From Chloroflexota bacterium (GTDB lineage Bacteria > Chloroflexota > Dehalococcoidia > Lucifugimonadales > Lucifugimonadaceae): a DNA stretch of 64,000 nucleotides. Within the stretch, counting starts at the first letter, position 1. Every line of letters begins with the position of its first letter. Position numbers and translations under genes: made by a program. This document shows, piece by piece, positions 32,965 through 35,200 of this stretch. Location: positions 40,844 through 104,843 of the forward strand of contig VXSB01000040.1 of assembly GCA_009838175.1 (NCBI GenBank), written 5' to 3'. The notes under the pieces are model-generated. The model was given only the letters and a program-made list of their open reading frames with translations, did no database searches and was not told the DNA's origin.

Positions 32965-34629
32965 TTGCAAAACATCATCCAAAGATTCAGTTTCGATTAC
33001 GATCTTGAAACGCTAAAAGGCGATATCTTCGGCGGACTCACCGCAACCGTCGTTGGACTCCCCGTCGCCCTCGCATTTGGCGTCGCATCAGGTCTCGGCG
33101 CCATCGCCGGTATCTACGGCGCTATCGCTGTCGGATTCTTCGCCGCTGTATTCGGGGGTACCAAATCTCAGATTTCCGGACCTACCGGTCCCATGGCCGT
33201 CGCTATGGCCGCCGTCGTAACCCTCGCCGGACCTGACAACCTCGGCGAAGCATTCGGCATTGTCGTTCTCGCAGGCATCATACAGATCCTCCTCGGCGTC
33301 CTGAAAATCGGACGATTCGTCGCATACACGCCATACTCCGTCATCTCCGGATTCATGTCCGGCATAGGCGTAATAATCATCATCCTCCAAATCCTCCCCT
33401 TCATCGGTGCAGAAGGCGTTTCCGGCGGACCCGTCGGCGCCATCCGCGCCATACCGGATGCAATACAGGACATCAATTTCGGCGCCTTAGCCATTGCCGC
33501 TGCCACTCTCGCAGTAGGCATACTATGGCCAGAAAAACTGCATCGATATTTCCCTTCTACTCTAGCTGCGCTAGGCATCGGCACTCTACTCGGCGTTCTA
33601 TGGCTCACCAGCGCTCCCGTCATTGGCCAAGTACCCTCCGGACTGCCAAGCCTTCACATCCCGCAAATCTCCGGCGACTTCCTCGTAAAAGCCGTACAAC
33701 CCGCCCTCATCATCGCCTTACTCGGTTCCATCGACAGCCTCTTAACTTCGCTCATCGCCGACTCGATGACACGTACACGGCACAACGCCAACAGGGAACT
33801 CGTCGGACAAGGCATCGGTAACACCATCGCTGGATTCATCGGCGGACTGCCAGGCGCAGGCGCAACCCTTGGAACCGTCGTCAACCTACGTGCCGGTGGT
33901 TCCACCCCAGTCTCGGGCGCAATTCGAGCCGGCATCCTCCTCACTCTGGTCCTCGGACTCGGACAATACGTCCAGAACATCCCTCTCGCTGCCCTGGCAG
34001 GCATTCTCCTAAAGGTGGGTTGGGACATCATCGACTGGCGATTCATCACGCGCATCCATCGCGTACAAGTCGAACACCTCATCGTCATGGTCATCACCAT
34101 GTTTTTGACGGTGTTCCTCGACCTCGTAACCGCCGTCGCCATAGGACTCATCGCCGCCGGAATGGCAACCGCAAAGCAACTCGAAAGACTCGAACTCGAC
34201 AGCGTAGTCTCAGTACCTATACTCGACCAGGTATTCTTCACCGGATACAAGGCCGCCCAATCGATTGATATGTTCTCGGCACGAGTCGGAGTCATCGCCC
34301 TGAGGGGAAGCTTCACGGTCTCATCGTCCAGCCGACTTATCACCACTATCAGCGAAGACATCCGTGAACACGAAGTCGTGATCCTAGACTTTACGGATAC
34401 CGTCTTCATCGACGACAGCGCCGCACTGGTCGTCGAGCAAATGATCGACGTCGCCATCACGGAAAACACCGAATGCATACTTGCGGGACTCGGCGGAGTC
34501 CCCGAAACCGCTCTGCGCGCACTCAACGCTATCGACAAAGTCCCGGAAGAACACATCGTCGACAACTTGGAAAGCGCGAAAATAGTAGCACTCGAAATGC
34601 TCGGCCTCGAAACCGAACGCGAATCCTAA
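32965..34629 (+). CDS. SulP family anion transporter with STAS domain
   Basis: Inner-membrane anion transporter (sulfate, bicarbonate or dicarboxylate in relatives), 554 aa. The start is TTG 32965; no better start is near. The membrane part opens with 'GDIFGGLTATVVGLPVALAFG' and has the SulP motif 'GGTKSQISGPTGPMAVAMAAVV'; 'ALLGSIDSLLTSLIADSMT' and 'QGIGNTIAGFIGGLPGAGAT' follow. The C-terminal 110 residues form a cytoplasmic STAS domain with 'VVILDFTDTVFIDDSAALVVE'. Substrate is not evident. The gene is monocistronic, followed by the promoter of the peroxiredoxin-like selenoprotein gene. Confidence 0.91.
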   Translation: MQNIIQRFSFDYDLETLKGDIFGGLTATVVGLPVALAFGVASGLGAIAGIYGAIAVGFFAAVFGGTKSQISGPTGPMAVAMAAVVTLAGPDNLGEAFGIVVLAGIIQILLGVLKIGRFVAYTPYSVISGFMSGIGVIIIILQILPFIGAEGVSGGPVGAIRAIPDAIQDINFGALAIAAATLAVGILWPEKLHRYFPSTLAALGIGTLLGVLWLTSAPVIGQVPSGLPSLHIPQISGDFLVKAVQPALIIALLGSIDSLLTSLIADSMTRTRHNANRELVGQGIGNTIAGFIGGLPGAGATLGTVVNLRAGGSTPVSGAIRAGILLTLVLGLGQYVQNIPLAALAGILLKVGWDIIDWRFITRIHRVQVEHLIVMVITMFLTVFLDLVTAVAIGLIAAGMATAKQLERLELDSVVSVPILDQVFFTGYKAAQSIDMFSARVGVIALRGSFTVSSSSRLITTISEDIREHEVVILDFTDTVFIDDSAALVVEQMIDVAITENTECILAGLGGVPETALRALNAIDKVPEEHIVDNLESAKIVALEMLGLETERES

Positions 34630-34717: not shown

Positions 34718-35200
34718 ATGTCCGCAAAACTCCAACAGGGCGACCGCCTGCCGCAACTCAAATTCAAACTCGTCGACGGTGATGAACTCAACCTACCTCG
34801 CGGCATGTCATCCCGATACCTCGCCCTTCTTTTCTTCCGCGGCACCTGGTGAAGCTACTGCCGAAGGCAGCTAGTTAGCTACCAAGAGCGCCTTGACGAA
34901 CTCGAAGCCCTCGGTGCTGACATCATCGCCGCAACCGTCGGAACTCAAGATGAAGTCAAAGCCATGCGCGACGAACTTGGACTCACTTTCCCCGTCGCAT
35001 ACGGCCTCACCGAATCCGAGTTCGAACCACTCGGCGGATGGTGGACAACCGATCACCACGGCCGCTACATGCAACCAGTCGAACTCTTGATCTCACGCGG
35101 CGGCGTGGTCTTCGGCTCCATGTACGCCTCCGGCCCAGTCGGGCGAATGTCCGTCGACGAAGTCCTCGTCGCAATTAGGGGTCGGGAACAACGCAGTTAA
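34718..35200 (+). CDS. Peroxiredoxin-like (AhpC/TSA) selenoprotein with UxxC motif; in-frame TGA read as Sec45
   Basis: Thiol-redox protein of the AhpC/TSA peroxiredoxin-like group, 160 aa if the in-frame TGA at 34850-34852 is read as selenocysteine. Reading from ATG 34718: 'MSAKLQQGDRLPQLKF...', then 'LLFFRGTW-U-SYCRRQL', then 'LGADIIAATVGTQDEVKAM' and 'LGLTFPVAYGL', to the stop at 35200. Relatives have 'GxWCPYCRxQL' here, so the TGA falls exactly on the first catalytic Cys and gives U45-S-Y-C48. The frame is clean on both sides, and the codons after the TGA match the family for more than 110 residues. A hairpin with a GAA loop begins straight after the TGA (separate entry). The ORF track sees only the part from 34964. 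A nonsense mutation is the alternative, but the position makes that unlikely. No selA, selB, selC or selD is in the window. Confidence 0.85.
34853..34876 (+). promoter_or_regulatory. Candidate bacterial SECIS hairpin directly after the Sec codon
   Basis: Bases 34853-34862 (AGCTACTGCC) pair with 34866-34876 (GGCAGCTAGTT), leaving a GAA triloop at 34863-34865, one bulged C at 34871 and one G-U pair: ten base pairs in all. A G at the first loop position and a small bulge are features of bacterial SECIS elements. The loop is somewhat nearer the UGA than in E. coli fdhF. An alternative fold pairs AGCTA with TAGCT at 34876-34880. Confidence 0.65.

Follow-up and report, generated by a model that had tools for sequence, protein, structure and literature searches.

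The gene at 34718-35200 on the forward strand of the window, the 64,000-nucleotide stretch of DNA analysed here, is predicted to encode a Prx-like (AhpC/TSA) selenoprotein, and its SelB-recruiting SECIS in this genus is assigned, with a probability of roughly two in three, to a short hairpin at 34866-34883 (hairpin B) that would have replaced the hairpin conserved in the rest of the family. With TGA read as selenocysteine (Sec), the ORF yields a protein of 160 aa carrying the motif W-U-S-Y-C, in which residue 45 is encoded by the TGA at 34850-34852 (forward strand). The product matches PF00578 with an E value of 4e-14 and contains both an AhpC/TSA domain and U-x-x-C; judged from its sequence, it is a peroxiredoxin-like UxxC selenoprotein that fits the known marine Prx-like family. 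Under the standard code (table 11), only a 78-aa ORF starting at 34964 is left at this locus. A long membrane-protein ORF (32965-34629), SulP-type anion transporter-like by eye, precedes the gene on the same strand, with 88 bases between its end and the gene. A scan of the window at the Rfam gathering thresholds gave a tRNA as the sole match, and a literature search on SAR202 and selenocysteine found nothing relevant.

The Sec codon is settled as far as sequence allows by the conservation of the TGA in homologs and by the Sec machinery of the genome. In a set of 250 genomes from the order, almost every close homolog has a single in-frame TGA at the Sec site; about 100 homologs have this single TGA at the residue-45 site with the frame open on both sides, all seven members of the window's genus share it, and the named TGA relatives are Chloroflexi/Dehalococcoidia MAGs. 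The exceptions are TGC (Cys) in two homologs (L032 and L039) and TCA in one tandem copy, and TGC also occupies the site in distant homologs, providing the Cys counterparts by which a selenoprotein family is recognized. The TCA (Ser) copy, L080 (G096:C43:48353-49014), differs at this position by one base from the Sec codon, adjoins a TGA copy at G096:C43:47916-48386 and retains much of the downstream sequence. The genome encodes SelA (518.8 bits), SelB (331.9 bits, above the family cut-off), SelD (367.3 bits, its own gene having an in-frame TGA) and a tRNA-Sec with the anticodon UCA. We therefore regard it as near certain that the TGA at 34850-34852 is a Sec codon, selenium incorporation being a prediction.

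The window's genome (G000) contains at least seven other genes that look like selenoprotein genes, each with an in-frame TGA, on contigs C45, C9, C7, C34 and C57 (loci L183, L180, L181, L182 and L019). They include three tandem Prx-like genes, a T-G-G-U Prx-like gene, thioredoxin-fold genes with Y-C-U-I-N-C and Y-T-U-Y-N-C, and SelD. Seven of them (C45 x3, C9, C7, C34 and SelD) were examined for loops, and the best model-conforming loop lies 20-32 nt after the UGA.

The signal downstream of the UGA is most clearly defined outside the window's genus. In 99 distinct TGA homologs, the bases after the UGA mostly read N12-CGGC-AGUUR-GCCG. Numbering from the base after the TGA (+1 = 34853), this sequence forms a hairpin (hairpin C) at +11 to +27, corresponding to 34863-34879 of the forward strand, with the loop AGUUR at +17 to +21. 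Among 26 diverse sequences, positions 11-16 pair with 22-27 in 89.7% of cells compared with 72.5% after shuffling, a value reached in 0 of 500 shuffles, and sliding the hairpin lowers pairing to at most 48%. Changes on both sides of a pair number 23 where 8.6 are expected, and RNAalifold recovers hairpin C de novo. The four core pairs occur together in 76 of the 99 Sec homologs and in 1 of 76 Cys homologs; the Leu codon in the loop is TTR in 99/99 Sec homologs and in 19/64 Cys homologs, although most of the Cys homologs are more distant, which weakens this control. The loop starts 16 nt after the UGA with G in second position, as in the bacterial model, so that hairpin C combines appropriate spacing, a loop G, covariation and absence from Cys homologs, and is predicted to bind SelB. 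Four loci (L070, L099, L109 and L044) rebuild the family SECIS, either including a bulge or using an AGUU loop of 4 nt (CGCC-AGUU-GGCG, for instance); the helix geometry drifts there while the AGUU loop remains. Comparison across the family thus identifies hairpin C as its putative SECIS.

Hairpin C is lost in the window's genus. The seven species (L024-L030) share AGCTAYTGCCGNAGGCAGCTRG(KY)AGCTACCA, in which hairpin B, GGcAGCU-AGUU-AGCUaCC, occupies +14 to +31 (34866-34883, forward strand) with its loop at +21 to +24 (34873-34876). Its stem is intact in 7/7 species and every variable position falls outside it; the stem being invariant, B does not covary within the seven. Measured against the model (16-37 nt spacing, a 3-9 nt loop, G in the first two positions and at least 4 bp), hairpin B has a 20-nt spacing, the loop AGUU with G second, and 4 bp followed by 2 bp beyond a mismatch. 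Its energy, -5.9 kcal/mol alone and -7.3 with extra context pairs, falls short of the model's limit of at most -7.5 kcal/mol, and its strength was not significant against synonymous shuffles (p 0.11). The genus also has tandem Prx paralogs, and these share the loop register of B: in 17 distinct sequences, positions 15-20 pair with 26-31 and loops (AGGUG, CGUCG or similar) fall at +21 to +25, the stems covarying by exchange of AU/GC and GC/CG pairs. Comparison shows that B is intact and C absent in this genus; the 4-nt register shift presumably ran from C to B. The preference for B as the SelB-recruiting element is based on the stem intact in all seven species, the register of the paralogs, the model spacing and loop G, and the covariation of C together with its loss in Cys homologs. 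SelB with GTP and Sec-tRNA(Sec) would then be recruited by a short in-ORF mRNA hairpin, most likely B in this genus.

The original prediction had named another structure, a hairpin directly after the TGA at 34853-34876 (+1 to +24; hairpin A, forward strand), as a bacterial SECIS. The sequence after the TGA is AGCTACTGCC GAA GGCAGCTAGTT, the two arms pairing across the GAA loop (34863-34865). All of the described pairs are present: ten base pairs (10/14, 9/15, 8/16, 7/17, 6/18, 5/20, 4/21, 3/22, 2/23 and 1/24), including one G-U (2/23), with C19 bulged. These pairs are included in the RNAfold MFE structure, which has a z score of -1.85 and is equalled in 11/200 dinucleotide shuffles. Protein-preserving shuffles of synonymous codons gave an early hairpin as strong as A with p = 0.022, which is nominally unusual and not decisive. 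Part of A is forced by the protein, since Y-C-R-R-Q encoded as TAC TGC CGN RGG CAG yields CUGCC/GGCAG. The part of the original prediction that stands is that the UGA is a Sec codon followed closely by its signal, the SECIS very likely lying within +1 to +31. Hairpin A itself has a UGA-to-loop spacing of 10 nt, outside the 16-37 nt of the model, while agreeing with the model in its loop G (GAA, first two positions) and energy (-10.6 kcal/mol against the limit of -7.5). The test by which the SECIS call was to fall, a lack of conserved pairing in TGA homologs, went against it: among 26 diverse Sec homologs, pairing was 71.5% compared with 71.9% in shuffled columns, with a single both-side change. 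Within the genus, the inner eight pairs are held in 7/7 species, whereas pair 2-23 is broken in 5/7 and pair 1-24 in 2/7; most homologs also lack these two outer pairs. The persistence of the inner pairs in the family follows from the conserved Tyr, Cys and Gln codons, which permit little else.

It is unlikely, in our judgement, that hairpin A, or an extended fold enclosing the UGA (hairpin D, described below), is the functional SECIS and that SelB tolerates a GNA triloop and a spacing this short. Such a reading would draw on the greater stability of A (-9.6 to -10.6 kcal/mol), its p value of 0.022, the retention of most of its pairs in the genus, the choice of D by RNAalifold on the genus, and the explanation that D provides for AGC being fixed as the codon of Ser1 and of Ser9. 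Taken alone, the dinucleotide- and synonymous-shuffle energy tests in the window do favour A over B and leave the choice of SECIS unsettled, and the seven genus sequences, in which neither hairpin covaries, are too few to decide between them. The short spacing of A, its lack of covariation in the family, its outer pairs broken within the genus, and a 5' arm that would occupy the mRNA channel of the ribosome at decoding nevertheless make it probable that A is not the SelB-binding element. The proposal that a lineage-specific SelB could explain the short spacing found no support: in the seven other Sec genes examined in this genome the loops lie 20-32 nt after the UGA, which does not speak for a SelB of this lineage reading a loop at +11; any early hairpin in those seven is weaker than A (C9 and C7 have no appreciable one), and the SelB has ordinary C-terminal winged-helix domains (SelB-wing_2 and SelB-wing_3).

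Hairpins A and B overlap and compete. Fold D (34847-34884, forward strand), an alternative ground state around the UGA, combines UGGU/ACCA, AGCUA/UAGCU and CUGCC-GNA-GGCAG; it extends A by pairing AGCU at +1 to +4 with AGCU at +25 to +28. RNAalifold on the genus gives its AGCU/AGCU and CUGCC/GGCAG parts without covariation, and the UGGU/ACCA part, read from the sequence, resembles the RNAfold MFE. In free RNA the probability of A is 0.63-0.99 and that of B at most 0.03. When the first 13 nt (+1 to +13) are hidden, B reaches 0.60-1.00 in six species and 0.11 in the seventh (L025), and the result in the six further favours B. Work in E. coli leads one to expect that the lower part of a SECIS unwinds within the mRNA tunnel (PMC4513850). 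Between +1 and +11, the choice of synonymous codon is unusually constant, with 6 of 10 invariant-residue codons fixed compared with 16 of 79 elsewhere. Hairpin B covers most of the fixed codons, and the invariant AGC of Ser1 fits only A or D, so that selection may act on the masking fold as well. A or D is the predicted free-mRNA fold, which the ribosome would melt as the UGA reaches the A site, and B may become exposed only after A has melted. It is a tentative and rather doubtful extension of this refolding model that A/D hides B as a gate, that melting of the first ~13 nt lets SelB be recruited at decoding and not before, and that the arrangement arose with the 4-nt downstream shift of the SECIS. 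Points against B are its weak energy, the dominance of A in free RNA, the invariant AGC of Ser1, for which A/D accounts and B does not, the low value in L025 and the poor hairpin of C45a.

The weakness of B, and hairpins in C45a and C45b that are not significant by energy, would also agree with Sec insertion depending little on one hairpin, SelB tolerating weak and variable structures while the codons are held by other constraints. We consider this improbable, as C strongly covaries in relatives and is absent from Cys homologs, and strong model-conforming hairpins follow the UGA in C45c, C9, C7 and SelD of the same genome. The reading of the TGA as a normal stop codon, or as an error of sequencing or assembly, followed by a chance hairpin, a notion to which the partly forced pairing and the 11/200 shuffles lend something, is ruled out for practical purposes by the same TGA in the seven genus members and ~100 homologs with open frames and by the complete Sec machinery.

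If hairpin B serves the genus and hairpin C the family, the gene cleanly illustrates how a SECIS maintained by covariation throughout a family can shift its register in a single genus, and such natural register variants make the spacing limits of SelB recognition testable. The masking fold, if real, bears on the timing of SelB recruitment to mRNA. The survey further documents a Prx-like selenoprotein as common in an uncultured Dehalococcoidia order, in genomes where the standard code would split the gene.

Prx-like UxxC selenoproteins have been described from Sargasso Sea and GOS marine metagenomes (PMC1088965; 'Prx-like 1', pfam00578, PMC2398784). The present gene shares with them the AhpC/TSA domain, U-x-x-C, a marine-type lineage and an in-frame UGA with a hairpin after it inside the ORF; the likeness to 'Prx-like 1' is one of domain and motif, the subfamily being placed without a tree. 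The family is known, and what appears to be new is a member whose genus probably carries its SECIS in another register than the family at large. Compared with the bacterial SECIS consensus model (16-37 nt from UGA to loop, MFE at most -7.5 kcal/mol; PMC13188914, Fig 2A), B is alike in its 4-nt loop with G second and then U and its 20-nt spacing, and differs in an energy of about -6 kcal/mol and a C-A mismatch after 4 bp. Hairpin C resembles that model in its 5-nt loop AGUUR and 16-nt spacing, whereas A departs from it in its 10-nt spacing. The upper hairpin of the E. coli fdhF SECIS, GGUUGC-AGGUCU-GCACC, begins about 11 nt after the UGA. Hairpin B is similar in being a short upper hairpin ~11-14 nt after the UGA with a loop of the AGGU/AGUU type, AGGUG occurring in the genus paralogs; unlike fdhF, its loop is smaller and the predicted free-RNA fold is a competing hairpin rather than the lower part of the same one.
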